Below the pieces are notes generated by a model that worked only from the letters and a program-made list of their open reading frames with translations, made no database searches and was not told the DNA's origin. From a virus, in the IMG/VR virus record IMGVR_UViG_3300030102_005682, positions 1 to 58,146 of that record: DNA of 58,146 bases; one strand, given 5' to 3'. Positions 3,451 through 10,317 of this stretch are shown here, one piece after another (the first letter of the stretch is position 1; every line of letters starts with the position of its first letter). Made by a program: the position numbers and the translations under genes.

Positions 3451-3611
3451 TGACAGACACGGGTAAATACAAATCGGTAGCGGTAAAGAAACCAAGCTAC
3501 CAAAAACTCAAAAGCATGGCTGAACAAGATTACAGATCTGTTGCTAGCTTTATAGAGTTCTTAGTTGACAAGGAAGCTGAAGAAAGGAGAAAGTCAAATG
3601 CCAACAAGTAA
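3450..3611 (+). CDS. Small ribbon-helix-helix-like DNA-binding protein
   Basis: A protein of 53 residues. The pattern YKSVAVKKPSYQKL, then two helices (KLKSMAEQDYRSVASFIEFLVDK in outline) fits the Arc/CopG ribbon-helix-helix fold: a beta strand followed by two helices. Such proteins are usually dimeric repressors or antitoxins. I chose ATG 3450, which overlaps the stop of the preceding peptide; upstream in-frame codons at 3381 would run antisense to that arrangement. A toxin partner is not evident. A transcriptional regulator acting near promoter P1 is the simplest reading. Confidence 0.6.
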   Translation: MTDTGKYKSVAVKKPSYQKLKSMAEQDYRSVASFIEFLVDKEAEERRKSNANK

Positions 3612-4230
3612 AAAGAAAGAGCCAGAGAATATTCAAGTACCTGGAATAAAACTACAAGACTGCGTAATCACAGTGAAGGGGAGTTCACCTTTAATCTGTA
3701 ACAAGTGGTCAGAAAAAGCAAAACAAGAAATCAGAGATAAGCAGATGAAAATAGCTAAAGCTGCAGGTAGAGAAGCGAAGGATCCTGAAAAGTGTTTTAA
3801 CGATTCTTTGTATAAGATGCCTGATGGTAAGGGTTATGGTTTTCCTGCAATTGCATTTAAAGCAGCTGCGGTTAACGCTTGCTCTCACATTGAGGGTTTA
3901 ACAAAAGTCTCTGCACGTGGATCATTTCACATACCTTGTGATCTTATTCCTATTAAGGGTAAGCCAATCATGAGAGAGGATATGGTTCGTGTAGGTATGG
4001 GCGCTGCTGATCTTAGATACAGAGGTGAGTTTACAGATTGGGAAGCTAGTATTCCTGTTAAGTATAACTCTAACGCTTGGTCAATTGAACAGTTGATCAA
4101 CGTATTTAACGTTGCTGGATTTGCGTCTGGTGTTGGTGAGTGGAGACCACAGAAGAATGGTAACTTCGGTATGTTCTCAGTCACTGAGGTTCAAAAGATG
4201 GAATATAATGAGGAGGTAAAAATTGCCTAG
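3598..4230 (+). CDS. Conserved phage protein of unknown function (210 residues)
   Basis: I start it at ATG 3598, which has AAGGAG 6-10 bases upstream, rather than at the earlier in-frame ATG 3565. Recognisable stretches are SSPLICNKWSEKAK near the N-terminus and GYGFPAIAFKAAAVNAC, a pattern I recall from uncharacterised phage early proteins. It is soluble, with no signal or membrane segment. It overlaps the next gene by 8 bases, so the two probably act together. I assign no function. Confidence 0.85.
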   Translation: MPTSKKKEPENIQVPGIKLQDCVITVKGSSPLICNKWSEKAKQEIRDKQMKIAKAAGREAKDPEKCFNDSLYKMPDGKGYGFPAIAFKAAAVNACSHIEGLTKVSARGSFHIPCDLIPIKGKPIMREDMVRVGMGAADLRYRGEFTDWEASIPVKYNSNAWSIEQLINVFNVAGFASGVGEWRPQKNGNFGMFSVTEVQKMEYNEEVKIA

Positions 4231-4732
4231 AGTAAAAGTAGTAAGTGATAAAGAGTACGTTTGGAGACAAGGTACAAGATATTCAGTGGAGGCACAGGTT
4301 GCTGGAGAGCATCTTGAGTCTTTGGAATACAAGCACGGGGCTCTCACCCCAGACCTGGTTGTGCGGGAGGCTAGAAAGAAGAGTTCACCTCTCCACCCAT
4401 GCTTTACGTGGGACGATACAAAAGCAGCTGAGAGCTATCGAAGGTTTGAGGCCAGGAAACTAACAGGATCAGTCCTCGTCGTGACTCAGCAAACAACTGA
4501 ACCTGTTCGTGCTTTTCATAGTGTTCCTATAACCATAACGTCTGACGATGAGCAGGCTCGAGGTTATGTTTCACTGGACGTGGCGATTGCAGACGAAGGT
4601 CATAGAAATCATTTGTTGCAACAAGCGTTTCGTGACTTAGCGGCCTGGAGAAATAAATATGCGGAGTTGAAAGAACTTCATAGTATTTTTTCCCAGGCAG
4701 ATCGCCTTGTGGAGAAATATTCTATTAGATAA
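4223..4732 (+). CDS. Conserved phage protein of unknown function (169 residues), TTG start
   Basis: The start codon is TTG at 4223, chosen because a perfect AGGAGG lies at 4211-4216 with ideal spacing and no ATG is available. The product (MPRVKVVSDKEYVW...) is soluble, with a helical C-terminus (WRNKYAELKELHSIF). It follows the 210-residue protein with an 8-base overlap and is followed directly by a terminator, so it closes a transcription unit. Its function is unknown; I recall phage homologues sharing the LTPDLVVREARKKSSPLH stretch. Confidence 0.8.
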   Translation: MPRVKVVSDKEYVWRQGTRYSVEAQVAGEHLESLEYKHGALTPDLVVREARKKSSPLHPCFTWDDTKAAESYRRFEARKLTGSVLVVTQQTTEPVRAFHSVPITITSDDEQARGYVSLDVAIADEGHRNHLLQQAFRDLAAWRNKYAELKELHSIFSQADRLVEKYSIR

Positions 4733-4893: not shown

Positions 4894-5116
4894 AGTAGGA
4901 TGGTCGATGGAAGAAGAGTTACAGGAATATAGAGAGTTATATGATAAAGTAGAAGAGGCTGTTATTGCATTAAAAGCAGCTCAAGAGTTAAAAGCTTTTC
5001 TTTATCTTGATCCTCTGCAACAAGAACATTTTAAAGTTACAATTCATGATCTTGAAAGTTTCTTGTCTGTGATAGATGAGGCTTCGACTGTCGAGATTGA
5101 TCAGTCGCCTGTATAG
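4883..5116 (+). CDS. Small helical protein of unknown function (77 residues)
   Basis: An acidic, largely helical protein (MVSKVGWSMEEELQEYRELYDKVEEA... in outline) with coiled-coil potential. The ATG sits after AAGGAAGAAA inside the previous small gene. It has no recognised family. It ends at the left edge of the G-rich tract, so transcription of this gene would probably run into that tract. Confidence 0.65.
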   Translation: MVSKVGWSMEEELQEYRELYDKVEEAVIALKAAQELKAFLYLDPLQQEHFKVTIHDLESFLSVIDEASTVEIDQSPV

Positions 5117-5537
5117 GCAGGAGAGGTGGGGCTGGGTGCGTTGTTATGAGGTAGTTTACGGCAGGAGTGGTGAGGTCGGGTACGTTCTGGTGGTAGCAAG
5201 GCGTGTTGTGGCAGGCTAGGTGAGTTATGGTGAGGTGAGATTAGTTCAGGAGTGGCAGGTGTGGTGAGTTGTGTCTCGGTGGGTTACGATTGCGGACAGG
5301 TTGAGTCAGTTCGGGGCATGGTGTTGTGAGGCGTGGATTGGTGAGGCAGGCCAGGTATGCCCAGGTTTGGTATGATCCGGACGGTTTAGGCAAGGCAGGC
5401 GGGGCGAGGTCGGGCTAGTTGCGGAGGGGTAGGTCACGGCAGGCGTGGTAAGTTTGAGCGAGGTATGGTCGGTCTTGTTGCGGCAGGTGGGGTGAGGCGC
5501 TGTCAGGTGAGGAGTGGTATAGGCATGTTGAGGCTGG
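5115..5537 (+). repeat. G-rich strand-asymmetric tract with five-base periodicity
   Basis: About 420 bp with no plausible plus-strand gene. G makes up nearly half of the top strand and C about one eighth (29 G and 8 C in 5161-5220). GG pairs recur every five bases: 10 of 18 pentamers in 5161-5250 end in GG, and 10 of 21 pentamers in 5291-5395 do so in the same register, with one-base slips elsewhere. Units look like NNRGG (gcagg, tgagg, ctagg). The tract ends just before the ribosome binding site of the 5551 gene. Possible roles are an R-loop or quadruplex-forming origin, a recombination hotspot, or a structured RNA; none is proven. Confidence 0.85.
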
Positions 5538-5550
5538 AAAGGAGTTTTGA

Positions 5551-5682
5551 ATGGATGATAAAATGAAAGCGTTGCAGGTTGTAAATGATTACATAAGATT
5601 TGACCGTGCATCATCGAACGTGACCGCAGCTTGGGAGACTGTGTTACGTTACATAAAGAGTTTGGAAAAGAGTGTAAAATAA
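5551..5682 (+). CDS. Hypothetical 43-residue protein
   Basis: The frame starts at ATG 5551 after a good ribosome binding site (GGAAAGGAG) that immediately follows the G-rich tract. The product (MDDKMKALQVVNDYIRFDRA...) is a short helical protein with no recognised domain. It is the first plausible product of any transcript crossing the tract. Confidence 0.55.
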   Translation: MDDKMKALQVVNDYIRFDRASSNVTAAWETVLRYIKSLEKSVK

Positions 5683-5887: not shown

Positions 5888-6016
5888 ATGGAAAACTTAG
5901 AAGAGAAATATCAAGAAGCGTTGCAAGCGATAGCTTACCTGCACAATGAGTTACTAGCTGTAAAGCATTGTCAGTGTGGCGATGATGAAGCAACAGAAGA
6001 GGATGACGAGGCCTAA
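5888..6016 (+). CDS. Small acidic hypothetical protein (42 residues)
   Basis: ATG 5888 follows a strong site (AGGAGG at 5878-5883). The product begins MENLEEKYQEALQAIAY, contains a CQC pair, and ends in a run of acidic residues (EATEEDDEA). The 205 bp upstream hold a weak inverted repeat (AAGTGG / CCACTT near 5693-5715) and an AT-rich stretch but no gene. Its stop overlaps the stop of the convergent minus-strand gene, with a GGCCT/AGGCC hairpin across the junction (6009-6025). Confidence 0.55.
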   Translation: MENLEEKYQEALQAIAYLHNELLAVKHCQCGDDEATEEDDEA

Positions 6017-6228
6017 TACAGGCCTTCGTGTCCCTGCTCGAAGTATTTATTTTTTAAGTGCCTGTCCCAGAAAGACTTTCCATTCGCTACAATGATGTTC
6101 CACTCTCGATGACTAAAGCGCTCTGTTGAGCCATCTTTGTATTCCACCTCGTAGACCATGTCATGACCTCCTGAGTCAGTCTGTTGTTCAAACACCCTTA
6201 GCTGCTTAATTATATCTTTTAGCTTCAT
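6013..6228 (-). CDS. Hypothetical 71-residue protein
   Basis: The last gene of a four-gene minus-strand operon (7247 down to 6013), overlapping the gene before it by 23 bases. It is soluble, with a central stretch YEVEYKDGSTERFSHREW that looks like a small beta structure. It has no recognised family. The upstream sequence lacks a clear ribosome binding site, so translation is probably coupled. Confidence 0.6.
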   Translation of the reverse strand: MKLKDIIKQLRVFEQQTDSGGHDMVYEVEYKDGSTERFSHREWNIIVANGKSFWDRHLKNKYFEQGHEGLY

Positions 6229-6487
6229 GGTATTTTAAATACTTAATCTCTTTTACCATACCTTTGGGAATAATTGCAACCCTTCCTCCTTCCTGGCCAC
6301 CATCATCACACCAGTCTGCCATCAAAGATATTTGAGTTTCATCGTCTTTTACTAGCCAACCTATTGAAAAACAACCCGCAGGGGTCTTTTTTACAATGTC
6401 TTTGTATTCTACCCACCCAGAAAACGGCTCGGTAGCGTCTTCCCATCGGACTATCACAATCGGTGTAGTCTTCAGGTTAAATTTCAT
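6206..6487 (-). CDS. Hypothetical 93-residue protein
   Basis: I start at the ATG whose complement is 6485-6487, because it overlaps the stop of the methyltransferase gene as ATGA; a longer frame from 6532 would overlap that gene by 48 bases. The product (MKFNLKTTPIVIVRWEDATEPFSGW...) is rich in beta-type residues and contains GCFSIGWLVKDDETQISL. I recall small phage proteins with this outline but know no function. Confidence 0.65.
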   Translation of the reverse strand: MKFNLKTTPIVIVRWEDATEPFSGWVEYKDIVKKTPAGCFSIGWLVKDDETQISLMADWCDDGGQEGGRVAIIPKGMVKEIKYLKYHEAKRYN

Positions 6488-7122
6488 GCTTTCTTTCTTA
6501 AGGTATTTTGACCAGGGACCAATTTTAAACATTTAGTGTGTTCTGTTCCTTTTGATACTGCGAACCATTGCTCGTGTCCTTGTATGAAATCAATTGAGCT
6601 GTTACCTGGGCACTTTCCTTTTGAAAAAGTATCATTCACAGCCTGTTGAACTGATGCTAATGCCATGTCATCGCCGACCATGGTCCCGCCTTCTTTAAGC
6701 TTGGGCCACCAGTTTAGTATGTCTTCCATAACTGGCTCATACTCGTGGGCTCCGTCTATAATGATGGCTTGAAAATGTTTGTTATGAAATCTTTTTAATG
6801 TGTTTACATCATCTGATCTTGATTTAACAGGTGTTACTATACCTTTGTCTATGAATACTTGGCAGTTTTTTAAGAACTTGTCATAGAAACCACCTACGAT
6901 ATCTAAGTTTGCATGTTCAGAGCTACCTTCGAAAGTGTCTAATGCGTAGACATGTAGCTTTTTACCTGAGTTGATAATGCTAGTGGCCAGGTAAGATGTT
7001 GACCTGCCCATGAAACTACCTATCTCTAAGATCTCATCACCGTCTTCACATAGATCTATGAGTTGGTCGTACGCTTCGTGCATGTTAAACCATCCAGGTA
7101 TTTTAAAGTAAGTTTGTTTCAT
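6484..7122 (-). CDS. SAM-dependent methyltransferase, Methyltransf_24-like
   Basis: A class I methyltransferase of 212 residues. The glycine-rich SAM motif is EILEIGSFMGRSTSYLA (near residues 33-49), followed by an acidic end of strand 2 (YALDTFEG) and motif IV region AIIIDGAHEYEPVMEDI. The family transfers methyl groups to small molecules or sugars; the substrate cannot be read from sequence. It overlaps a 42-residue gene upstream and a 93-residue gene downstream by 4 bases each, forming a coupled minus-strand operon. Confidence 0.85.
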   Translation of the reverse strand: MKQTYFKIPGWFNMHEAYDQLIDLCEDGDEILEIGSFMGRSTSYLATSIINSGKKLHVYALDTFEGSSEHANLDIVGGFYDKFLKNCQVFIDKGIVTPVKSRSDDVNTLKRFHNKHFQAIIIDGAHEYEPVMEDILNWWPKLKEGGTMVGDDMALASVQQAVNDTFSKGKCPGNSSIDFIQGHEQWFAVSKGTEHTKCLKLVPGQNTLRKKA

Positions 7123-7247
7123 TTTATTCTGTCCTTTATAAATTCTAATATTCGTCTGATACTAATGCCATAGCCGATCAAGGTCAAAGAAACTTTTTCC
7201 CCTGTGTTTTGGTCCGTGACTGTGACGGTTATATCTCTATATTTCAT
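7119..7247 (-). CDS. Hypothetical 42-residue protein heading the minus-strand operon
   Basis: The frame MKYRDITVTVTDQNTGEKV... ends in a TGA that overlaps the methyltransferase ATG, the same 4-base coupling used in the rest of the operon. It looks like a short beta-rich domain with a basic helical tail (ISIRRILEFIKDRIK). No strong ribosome binding site is visible. It is supported by the overlap pattern rather than by homology. Confidence 0.5.
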   Translation of the reverse strand: MKYRDITVTVTDQNTGEKVSLTLIGYGISIRRILEFIKDRIK

Positions 7248-7562: not shown

Positions 7563-7803
7563 TGTTACGCATATAGTTTATTAAATTAAAATAAAAAAAT
7601 AAAAAATAAAAAAATGGACCGTTTGTTACGTAACACTATATATTTATTAATATAATATATATATATCAATCGTTTTAGCTGTTACGTGGGTGTTACGTGG
7701 TTATCCCAACGTTACGTAACAGTGGGAATAATTAGGATTGATTTTACTTTAAATCTATGAGAAGTGTATCCTAATGACAAAAACAGACGTAACAGACGTA
7801 ACA
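7563..7803. promoter_or_regulatory. TGTTACG iteron and palindrome cluster beside an AT-rich stretch (candidate pac or origin)
   Basis: TGTTACG or its complement occurs at 7563-7569, 7624-7635 (as the perfect palindrome TGTTACGTAACA), 7680-7686, 7691-7697, 7710-7721 (GTTACGTAAC core, flanked by TCCCA and TGGGA) and twice inside the start of terS (7788-7794, 7797-7803), where it encodes TDVTDV. An A/T-only-like stretch lies at 7576-7670. Repeated binding sites just upstream of terS fit a packaging initiation site recognised by TerS; an iteron origin or an autoregulatory operator is also possible. Confidence 0.65.
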
Positions 7804-8310
7804 ACTAAGTTACAAGAAAGATTTGATCACTTCCCAGGACTAACACCAAAGCAGGCTAAGTTTGCTCAGCTGATAGTTTTGTACGAAGGTAGAAAGACCG
7901 CAACACAAATAGCGATCGAAAGTGGTTTCTCTGAAAAGACTGCAAGACAACAAGCTAGTAACATGCAAAACCCAAAGATGTTTCCTAAAGTTGTTGATGC
8001 CATACAGCATTACAGAGTTCAATTTTATAGAAAGTATGAAACAAGTTATGATAAGCATTTAAAAAGAATGTATGAATTATCTTCAAGAGCAGAAGAGGCA
8101 GGCAATTGGAATGCTGCCGTAGCTGCTGAGAAAAATAGAGGCCAGGTGGCAGGGCTGTATATTGATAAAAAAGAAATAAAATATGGAACTATTGATAGTA
8201 TGAGTATGGAGGAAGTCGATGCAAAAATTGTTGAACTTGAGAAAAGATTATCTGGCGAATCGGCTAAAGTTATAAATGCCAGTGACGAACAAGAAACAGC
8301 TCAAAGGTAG
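7774..8310 (+). CDS. terS: Terminase small subunit
   Basis: The 178-residue protein contains the typical TerS opening LTPKQAKFAQLIV and a helix-turn-helix with TATQIAIESGFSEKTARQQAS (about residues 45-65), followed by a helical oligomerisation region. TerS forms a ring that recognises phage DNA and directs TerL to start packaging. The gene starts within the palindrome cluster and is separated from terL by two nuclease genes and a repeat-rich noncoding region, which is unusual. It overlaps the next gene by 35 bases. Confidence 0.85.
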   Translation: MTKTDVTDVTTKLQERFDHFPGLTPKQAKFAQLIVLYEGRKTATQIAIESGFSEKTARQQASNMQNPKMFPKVVDAIQHYRVQFYRKYETSYDKHLKRMYELSSRAEEAGNWNAAVAAEKNRGQVAGLYIDKKEIKYGTIDSMSMEEVDAKIVELEKRLSGESAKVINASDEQETAQR

Positions 8311-8665: not shown

Positions 8666-9077
8666 ATTATCAAAAAAAGTAAGAACTAATTTTACTAATG
8701 TACACTTCCTTAAAATAGATTCTTGGTCGACACCAGGTATGCCTGATTTATATGGTCTTTACAAATGGGGTAATAATAACCCAGGTACATTTTGGATGGA
8801 ACTCAAGTGTACAAAAATTAACAAGTTGGGACTGAGTCCACAGCAAGTTGCTATAAATCTCAAGCTATCTGAGTACAACATACCTAATTACATACTTGCC
8901 GAAAGCCTCTCTCGGCGGCAGCTCAAAATATTTCCAGGAAGCGTGGTTCAAGATTGTGCGAAGGATGGTTTTAAGTCCATGAGTCATGTTGCATGCTTCG
9001 ATGGCCCCTACGATTGGACAGCCGTGGAAAAATCCGTGGTCCAAGTCTCCCCACACCATACCGATCTTATAGTATAA
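8643..9077 (+). CDS. VRR-NUC-like PD-(D/E)XK nuclease (144 residues), GTG start
   Basis: Start GTG 8643 overlaps the previous gene by 23 bases. The active-site pattern is PGMPDLYGL, then FWMELKCTK and a downstream Gln (LSPQQ), the PD...ExK...Q arrangement of VRR-NUC and related phage nucleases. The last 17 or so codons run through repeat element A (9028-9077), so the C-terminal tail is encoded by repeat sequence. That suggests the repeat inserted into or fused with the end of the gene. Confidence 0.75.
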   Translation: MASTPESRLSKKVRTNFTNVHFLKIDSWSTPGMPDLYGLYKWGNNNPGTFWMELKCTKINKLGLSPQQVAINLKLSEYNIPNYILAESLSRRQLKIFPGSVVQDCAKDGFKSMSHVACFDGPYDWTAVEKSVVQVSPHHTDLIV

Positions 9078-9118
9078 AAAGTTCCCGCGCTCCCGCTCGC
9101 GAGCAGCTTTTCTTCTCC
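9028..9118 (+). repeat. Dispersed repeat copy A
   Basis: It opens with AAAAATCCG, then GTCTCCCC at 9045-9052, an A/T-rich TATAGTATAA, and a GC-rich tail containing the palindrome GCTCGCGAGC. It begins inside the 3' end of the upstream nuclease gene. Confidence 0.6.
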
Positions 9119-9142
9119 TGAATCACGATTCAACACTACATC

Positions 9143-9228
9143 TTGAAAAATCCGAAGCGACTAACACCGGATCTTGTGTTATGCCTATGATAGAACTGGG
9201 AGCGGCCCAGGCAGGATGCAGCTGGAAA
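9143..9228 (+). repeat. Dispersed repeat copy B (most degenerate)
   Basis: It has TTGAAAAATCCGAAG at 9143-9157, then a diverged middle and a GC-rich tail (GGGAGCGGCCCAGGC). The preceding GAATCACGATTC (9119-9130) resembles the sequence before copy D. Confidence 0.45.
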
Positions 9229-9232
9229 TCCT

Positions 9233-9320
9233 GAAAAAATCCGAAGGTCAAGTCTCCCCATTTTTGGTATGATATATAATAAATTAACCGGATCCCGCTC
9301 GCGCCGGAGTTGGGTGAAAG
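9233..9320 (+). repeat. Dispersed repeat copy C
   Basis: It has GAAAAAATCCGAAG at 9233-9246, GTCTCCCCATTTTTGG, TATGATATATAATA (promoter-like) and then GGATCCCGCTCGCGCCGG. It is closely matched by copy D. Confidence 0.65.
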
Positions 9321-9383
9321 TCCTTTTTTCAAGGGTTTTTGCCGAATCGTGATCCGTGATTCAGGGTAAAAGTGCCGATATAC

Positions 9384-9465
9384 TTGAAAAATCCGAAGCT
9401 GCGGTCTCCCCATTTTTGAGATGGTATATAATATAAGTGGGAGCTCCGGGCCAGGTGAGTTGTTC
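9384..9465 (+). repeat. Dispersed repeat copy D
   Basis: It has TTGAAAAATCCGAAG at 9384-9398, GTCTCCCCATTTTTGAGATG and TATATAATATAAG, then a GC-rich inverted region (GGGAGCTCCGGG). It lies upstream of the 9578 gene and could act as its promoter. Confidence 0.65.
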
Positions 9466-9577
9466 GATTTTCTTCATGAAAAGGCTTGAAAAATAAGGGC
9501 AAATCACTATATATATAGCATGCAGCTGCATCCCTGGTGAAGATTAGCAGGTGATACAGCTCAGTCAGGAGAAAGAT

Positions 9578-9736
9578 ATGAATTTATTAGCAATTGCAGG
9601 TCTCATTTGGGCATTCCTCTTAGCCATTGGGTTCGAGATGAAAGGGGGGACCTTGATAATACTGGTCTTCTTGGTCATCGCTGGACTGGTCGAAGGTGCA
9701 CGTGAGGTAGGGGGTTTCATCAATGTGCTCCTATAA
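9578..9736 (+). CDS. Small two-span membrane protein (52 residues)
   Basis: I start at ATG 9578, with AGGAGAAAG just upstream, rather than the longer frame from 9551. Two hydrophobic segments are visible, LLAIAGLIWAFLLAIGF and GGTLIILVFLVIAGLV, separated by a short polar turn (EMK). No family is recognised. It lies between repeat copies D and E, and its stop codon is part of copy E. The 500 bp before it (9078-9577) contain only repeat copies and no other supportable gene. Confidence 0.6.
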   Translation: MNLLAIAGLIWAFLLAIGFEMKGGTLIILVFLVIAGLVEGAREVGGFINVLL

Positions 9737-9812
9737 AATCCGAAGCACGAGTATCCCCGTTGATATGGGACGTACTAATAAAAAAAGTTCCCGCTCGCGA
9801 GCAGCGCGGGTA
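9735..9812 (+). repeat. Dispersed repeat copy E
   Basis: AAAATCCGAAG at 9735-9745 begins within the stop codon of the 9578 gene. It continues with GTATCCCC, TACTAATA, and TTCCCGCTCGCGAGCAGC, which nearly repeats the tail of copy A. CCCGC and GCGGG can pair around the GCTCGCGAGC palindrome. Confidence 0.6.
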
Positions 9813-9816
9813 AAAA

Positions 9817-9900
9817 TCTTCGGAAAATCCGAAGGTTGAGTATCCTTGATAACATAGGATCTTACCAATAGAAAATCTGGGCGCAGACCAGCTGATGCCA
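9817..9900 (+). repeat. Dispersed repeat copy F
   Basis: CTTCGGA-AAA-TCCGAAG (9818-9834) forms a perfect 7-bp hairpin. It is followed by GTATCC, an ATCCT/AGGAT stem and TACCAATA, matching copy E. A GC-rich tail follows. Between 9737 and 10041 there is no gene, only copies E and F, a long inverted repeat and promoter P3. Confidence 0.55.
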
Positions 9901-9944
9901 AAAGTGAAAAAAAATTTTCGAGTTTCTTGTTTGGTTGACAAGAT

Positions 9945-10005
9945 AAGTTGGGGTAAAAAACAATTAACATTTTTTTTATTTTGTTATTGTAATTTATCCC
10001 AACTT
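9945..10005. promoter_or_regulatory. Long inverted repeat upstream of the 10042 gene
   Basis: AAGTTGGGGTAAA (9945-9957) and TTTATCCCAACTT (9993-10005) pair at 12 of 13 positions (the exception is G-U in RNA), and the inner ACAAT/ATTGT can extend the stem. A TTGACA -35-like hexamer lies just before it (9935-9940). It may be an operator, or a terminator or attenuator with the T-run in its loop. Confidence 0.45.
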
Positions 10006-10017
10006 CATATTTAATAT
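9987..10017 (+). promoter_or_regulatory. Promoter P3, diverged member of the TTGTAATT family
   Basis: TTGTAATT begins at 9987 and TAATAT lies at 10012-10017, followed by TAGTTAGAAAGGAG. The sequence after the -10 matches the other members (TTAGTTA, TTACGTTA). Spacing is 19 bases, one more than in P1 and P2. Confidence 0.4.
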
Positions 10018-10041
10018 TAGTTAGAAAGGAGAAAGTAAGGT

Positions 10042-10317
10042 ATGTCAACTGAACTAGAACAAGTCTTACAGATAATTCAAGGTGGAAAAAAAGCAAGTAC
10101 TTCGCACCTTAATTCTGCTTGGCAAAAACAAATGCTAGGTTGGGTTTACTCAACTGCATTAGAGTCTGCCATTATGACTTATCTAACATCAAATGATATG
10201 AGTAAAGAAAATCTTATTAGAACTTTACTTACTATCATTCAGAATAAACCTAGTGATATGCAAAGTTCAATATCTGAACAAGTCCAGTCAGAACTTGAAA
10301 AAGTCCTGAACAACTAG
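10042..10317 (+). CDS. Hypothetical protein (91 residues)
   Basis: Good ribosome binding site (AGAAAGGAGAAAG) after candidate promoter P3. The product (MSTELEQVLQIIQGGKK...) is a soluble helical protein with a coiled-coil-like C-terminus (EQVQSELEKVLNN). No family is recognised. It is the only gene between the repeat array and terL; the 264 bp that follow hold a hairpin, a palindrome and a pyrimidine tract but no gene. Confidence 0.7.
   Translation: MSTELEQVLQIIQGGKKASTSHLNSAWQKQMLGWVYSTALESAIMTYLTSNDMSKENLIRTLLTIIQNKPSDMQSSISEQVQSELEKVLNN

Follow-up and report, generated by a model that had tools for sequence, protein, structure and literature searches.

A candidate VIPR-type guide-RNA array beside a Cas7-like RAMP gene in a viral genome

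Introduction

VIPR (Viral Interference Programmable Repeat), reported in a 2026 preprint (PMC13142463, doi 10.64898/2026.04.26.720920) from viruses such as Escherichia phage SUSP1, is presented there as a virus-encoded forerunner of CRISPR, in which a small ancestral RAMP protein (Vipr), whose gene has a vap gene as neighbour, acts with RNAs that alternate GGY triplets and NN dinucleotides. According to its main text, each guide RNA (vrRNA) contains 9-16 repeats, the NN positions pair with double-stranded DNA with one skipped base, mostly at codon wobble positions, and the target is repressed, an activity used against competing elements (PMC13142463). A structured, invariant 3' tail is described for the SUSP1 clade alongside other layouts; the "staggered arrays" and "a related consensus" that the main text mentions, with details in its supplements (PMC13142463), may already cover the type of array considered here. 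Our literature search found no second paper on VIPR.

The stretch of DNA analysed here (the window) is the whole 58,146-base IMG/VR virus record IMGVR_UViG_3300030102_005682, and the genome itself may be incomplete. It carries DNA polymerase, helicase and terminase genes, and as a virus record with terminase genes it places its contents, like VIPR, in a phage or provirus. No DNA relative of the window was found in the phage collection, and Rfam and tRNA scans of the window returned nothing. We propose with high confidence that a G-rich tract in the window is a vrRNA array of the VIPR type, which would work with a RAMP protein encoded just upstream (Table 1); expression, binding and repression would then follow the scheme of the preprint (PMC13142463).

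Results

Composition and position of the tract

The tract is strongly skewed between strands (G 46.4%, C 12.6% over 5116-5537), close to the 48% and 13% given by a first-pass annotation, which had also described a five-base periodicity of GG dinucleotides with occasional slips. This periodicity is borne out by the GG-GG autocorrelation over 5115-5551, which at lag 5 reaches 31 against 14.0 +/- 3.3 in 1000 dinucleotide shuffles (z 5.1; 0/1000 as high) and is likewise high at lags 10, 15 and 20. Because lags 4, 9, 14 and 19 are raised too, the slips are mostly of -1. The annotation was also right to call the tract non-coding and free of simple tandem repeats: no long ORF crosses it on the + strand, and a tandem-repeat search over it found none. 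On one side lies a 77-aa ORF that ends at 5116, on the other a 43-aa ORF; the tract extends to the Shine-Dalgarno-like GGAAAGGAG, followed by the ATG at 5551. A search for intrinsic terminators found none, and what resembles promoters near the array does so only by matching a consensus.

Cassettes of pentads

Through the RAMP protein we found 17 relatives; 15 of them extend as far as this region, and each of these 15 carries a G-rich tract there. The tract is therefore not an assembly artefact, the possibility that the annotation had named as fatal to its own reading. When the tracts of the relatives are set side by side, they resolve into common blocks of about 44-64 nt that occur in different orders, each opening with GGCA and continuing in pentads of the form G-K-Y-N-N. 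Across 14 arrays (excluding L083 and L093, which over the array seem to be the same as L082 and L091), 65 of 93 cassettes have a length of 4+5k, so the slips fall mainly at GGCA cassette borders; they are real, as the annotation had it, but they are not random. A further addition to its description is that three positions in every five are conserved: in distinct 4+5k blocks the first is G in 89%, the second G or T in 94% and the third T or C in 84%, followed by two variable bases.

The cassettes reappear in different orders: type c01 is shared by 13 of the 14 arrays, c06 by 10 and c04 by 9, with others confined to one. In the window array G-K-Y is matched by 47 of 61 pentads, and 42 of the 61 have G at position 2. 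As delimited by sequence, window cassettes contain 6-9 clean pentads and those of relatives up to 12; for vrRNAs the preprint's main text gives 9-16 repeats, a range that the window cassettes reach only at its lower limit. No repeated or invariant 3' tail was seen between cassettes, and no identical repeats, tandem or interspersed, of the kind that define a CRISPR array were found in the tract. Strict GG(T/C) arrays occur among wider relatives, for example L158 and L166.

Table 1. Features of the array locus and of related loci (positions refer to the window unless a relative is named)
Feature	Position	Strand	Description
Vipr-like RAMP protein	3598..4230	+	210 aa from ATG 3598; ORF opens at TTG 3565; phrog_4652, no Pfam
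Candidate accessory (Vap-like) protein	4223..4732	+	169 aa; phrog_15946, no Pfam
Putative vrRNA-type array	5116..5549	+	eight GGCAGG-started cassettes of G-K-Y-N-N pentads
Cassette 1	5116..5159	+	NN: GA GG TG GC GT GA AG AC; target not found
Cassette 2	5160..5209	+	NN: GT GA CG AC CT GG, then register slip; type c01, in 13/14 arrays; extra base kept in mid-register; target not found
Cassette 3	5210..5253	+	NN: TA GA AT GA GA TA CA GT; target not found
Cassette 4	5254..5344	+	91 nt, probably two fused; first NN GT GA GT TC GG AC TG
Cassette 5	5345..5393	+	NN: CA AT CA TT AT CC CG TA AA; decodes to HIT-family signature HIHLIPRYK
Cassette 6	5394..5437	+	NN: GG GA CG TA GC GG AG AC; target not found
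Cassette 7	5438..5481	+	NN: GT AA TG GA AT CG TT GC; type c06, in 10/14 arrays; weak candidate target ANRISQFT in phage proteins
Cassette 8	5482..5549	+	runs into ribosome binding site of next ORF
43-aa ORF	5551..5682	+	directly 3' of array; short ORF opens at same place in relatives shown in full
tRNA-Cys	L086 3092-3165		upstream of array
tRNA-Cys	L088 3299-3372		upstream of array
tRNA-Cys	L090 11753-11824		upstream of array
tRNA-Cys	L092 11508-11581		upstream of array

Of the 15 relatives scanned, 4 have a tRNA-Cys gene immediately upstream of the array (Table 1), that of L090 having a body that differs in sequence. In an AT-rich virus (L209, about 7700-8200) a tRNA-like gene, judged by eye, seemingly interrupts the array between cassettes.

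Partner genes and the spread of array loci

A simple DNA pattern, GGCAGGNNNGGTNNG occurring twice within 20-50 nt, matches at least 119 stretches in the viral collection, 118 of which are new loci. These range in GC content from 26 to 71%, 112 of them have a lag-5 excess that is at least twofold (table read by eye), and many contain the clean form GGCA(GGTNN)n. Profile searches place a homologue of the RAMP gene in 90 of the 118 loci, leaving 28 without one, and a homologue of its neighbour in 89; neither gene is present in 23. Six of these 23 (L123, L147, L168, L186, L192 and L205, with weak period 5) look like chance matches and were retained in all counts. The RAMP homologue is on the strand of the array in 90/90 loci, upstream of it in 82/90 and always within 1.6 kb, and the neighbour is on that strand in 89/89. 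This agrees with the suggestion in the annotation that the tract acts through its G-rich strand.

Neither partner protein has a Pfam family. The AlphaFold2 model of the RAMP protein (pLDDT 89.8, 60 sequences) has 62 Foldseek matches in the PDB at E<=0.001, and the best 50 of these 62 are CRISPR effector complexes of type III and type VII; VIA-align superposes it on Cas7/Csm3 folds with Z 12.3 over 157 residues at 3.5 A. The predicted structure therefore identifies the protein as a RAMP with a Cas7-like fold, as expected of VIPR. Its profile also matches an ORF of phage SUSP1 (28477-29079, E 7e-17) that is flanked by GGY-NN tracts. From this layout we infer that the SUSP1 ORF is the Vipr protein of PMC13142463, whose text gives no coordinates. 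The AlphaFold2 model of the neighbouring protein (pLDDT 89.0) has weak matches only in the PDB, the top rows being winged-helix-like at E 0.14 or worse. No homologue of it was found in SUSP1 (best E 0.017), a difference between the two loci.

The same gene pair and array are present in two cultured phages, Gordonia phage UmaThurman (gp39-gp41) and Mycobacterium phage Saal (gp50-gp52), where the genes are all annotated as hypothetical proteins and the UmaThurman array is itself annotated as gene 40. An array of about 1.5 kb with frequent GGCA punctuation lies at 3930-5500 of L150, a 119-kb contig, and two ORFs there match the RAMP profile.

Selection on the NN dinucleotides

Matching cassettes from different arrays (13 families, 41 distinct sequences) allow the positions of the pentad to be compared. 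Polymorphic columns number 8 at G1, 22 at K2, 25 at Y3, 8 at N4 and 5 at N5, each of 116, and the changes are mostly G/T at K2 and mostly C/T at Y3. Pooled, K2 and Y3 are polymorphic in 47 of 232 columns against 13 of 232 for the NN positions (Fisher p 3e-6; 0/10,000 within-family permutations). In other words, the scaffold drifts while the NN dinucleotides are conserved; they vary between cassettes but stay constant within one, and so behave as a guide should.

Decoding with a one-nucleotide skip

If the NN pairs of a cassette are read with one skipped base between them, cassette 5 becomes CAnATnCAnTTnATnCCnCGnTAnAA. This pattern has two exact matches in the whole viral collection, on two different contigs, and both lie in codon phase inside HIT-family genes, at HIHLIPRYK, the histidine-triad signature. 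In species genomes the pattern matches at least 120 stretches, and among the 120 matches listed 116 are HIT (108 by regular expression and eight by reading) and four are not. In 100 genomes of one bacterial family, a set chosen for containing one cassette 5 match, a skip of 1 gave 12 matches with at most one mismatch, against 0, 1 and 1 for skips of 0, 2 and 3, and 10 of the 12 are HIT-like by reading. A sample of 148 genomes from another phylum, centred on a genome with a cassette 5 match, gave five matches at the same tolerance and none with the reversed control.

A second target is suggested by a cassette of the relatives. Type c09, present in L085, L086 and other relatives (7/14 arrays), decodes to [HQ][IM]G[KN]AVPV[KN], a pattern with at least 120 matching viral stretches. 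Among the 120 matches listed, 119 read as motif X of C5-methyltransferases; 111 lie in open frames of at least 100 aa, and 64 have upstream the two further motifs that were searched for. Type c13 (3/14 arrays) reads Y[KN][HQ][IM]G[KN]AVTV, by eye the same motif.

The viral collection was searched with five decoded patterns in all: two led to clear families, one had no matches, one gave a weak candidate and one was mis-specified. The one with 0 matches was a 20-base pattern from the 60-nt cassette of the relatives. The mis-specified pattern, of type c10, disallowed TG and matched five loci with no common gene. Cassette 7 gave 10 matches in about six distinct DNA contexts by reading; ANRISQFT is in wobble phase with two of these, a number too small for this peptide to be claimed as its target. 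Regular expressions for 19 decoded cassettes matched only HIT among the local ORFs, in two loci that had been fetched for it. In a local skip test (1.9 Mb, 140 of 402 NN strings), on a set that is small and consists mostly of VIPR-bearing loci, the best scores with a skip of 1 were about the same as those with skips of 0, 2 and 3 and with shuffled order. The best matches within the window's own genome fall short for all eight of its cassettes, cassette 5 reaching 13/18, and the decoding searches did not find targets for most window cassettes. At the level of sequence, the NN pairs appear to specify DNA with a one-nucleotide skip. The decoded motifs single out no victim organism, because HIT and methyltransferase motifs are widespread, in phages and cells alike.

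Discussion

The first-pass annotation is upheld in its description of the tract and only partly in its interpretation, the evidence pointing instead to guide RNAs of a VIPR-type system. The resemblance to VIPR, as its preprint's main text describes it, extends to a small RAMP protein with a neighbouring gene in a phage, to G-rich 5-nt repeats with a fixed triplet and variable NN (here of consensus G-K-Y-NN), and to a one-nucleotide skip that falls on wobble positions; the RAMP protein also has profile homology to the SUSP1 ORF. However, the scaffold of the window is relaxed to G-K-Y and thus looser than GGY, and its cassettes are dense, back-to-back and punctuated by GGCA without a visible tail. 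The Cas7-type fold and the modular guide array also recall class 1 CRISPR effectors (Cas7/Csm3), but here no identical repeats separate spacers, the pentad scaffold lies inside the guide and the small protein stands alone.

We propose that the tract would be transcribed as a string of vrRNAs along which copies of the RAMP protein would align, each gripping the G-K-Y triplet of one pentad and exposing its NN dinucleotide. The NN pairs would jointly recognize double-stranded DNA with one skipped base between pairs. Since the skipped base would be the third codon position, such a guide could recognize a conserved protein motif in any of its synonymous codings. Binding would lead to repression of the targeted gene, whose most likely carrier is a competing phage or another mobile element, and we infer that competing phages are the natural victims. 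In this scheme vrRNA transcription, assembly of the ribonucleoprotein (including one protein per pentad), DNA binding and repression are taken over from what the main text of PMC13142463 reports for VIPR.

Another way to account for a repeated triplet is an RNA that serves as scaffold or sponge for a protein forming a ring or filament, with NN as a mere spacer. TRAP binding sites have just such an architecture, a triplet plus a two-nucleotide spacer, and RAMP proteins do bind RNA. We nevertheless give this reading very little credence, because matching cassettes keep their NN as K and Y drift and because NN reads as HIT and methyltransferase motifs; the array also differs from TRAP sites in the triplet itself, and the partner protein has a RAMP fold instead of the TRAP ring.

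The strand-asymmetric richness in G had led the first-pass annotation to suggest an R-loop or quadruplex, able to prime replication or to block nucleases. The tract contains no canonical G4 (four runs of at least three G with short loops), which leaves the quadruplex unsupported, and its RNA folds no better than shuffles (z +1.7), as expected for guides coated by protein. An R-loop, replication primer or exonuclease block finds no support in these results either: conservation rests on NN and not on runs of G, a RAMP gene is linked in 90 of the 118 loci, and protein motifs emerge when cassettes are decoded. An origin would not be expected to show shuffled cassettes in which NN is conserved, so we also disfavour that role and regard this whole class of explanation as highly improbable. 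A Rho-dependent terminator on the pyrimidine-rich antisense strand, acting against the leftward genes at 6013-7247, would fit the C-rich, G-poor minus strand and the minus-strand ORFs that point towards the tract, but it has hardly any chance of being correct, as it leaves the period of 5, the GGCA borders, the cassette shuffling and the NN code unexplained and in 90/90 loci the partner gene is encoded by the opposite strand. Pac or origin iterons, a CsrA or ribosome sponge, a PAM decoy and a diversity-generating element were also considered for the tract and dropped.

Returning to the guide-array reading, we hypothesize further that GGCA-punctuated arrays form a phage-borne, horizontally exchanged guide library, in which related phages gain, lose and reorder whole cassettes, AT-rich viruses have let the scaffold drift to G-K-Y while the NN code was kept, and the targets chosen for the guides are the most highly conserved motifs of proteins, such as the HIT triad and C5-methyltransferase motif X. 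Aimed in this way, one guide would reach many competitors and would be blind to synonymous escape. We hold this broader picture to be an even call. Coming from a different phage group, our analysis lends independent support, drawn from sequence comparison, to a noncontiguous guide code that so far belongs to one 2026 preprint. To that preprint's main text it adds an evolutionary test, in which NN is held while the scaffold drifts, and it contributes two protein motifs decoded as targets, along with a simple DNA pattern by which further arrays of this kind can be located. Existing metagenomes can thereby serve to test how RNA-guided memory arose and was exchanged before CRISPR.

Elsewhere in the window, the region 9000-10150 contains four diverged copies of a 36-nt element, AAAATCCGAAG..GTCTCCCCATTTTTG.., two of which extend into TATATAATA, together with a second repeated element with TCCCGCTCGCG. 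These resemble promoter or operator sites, repeated ahead of the gene for the terminase large subunit.
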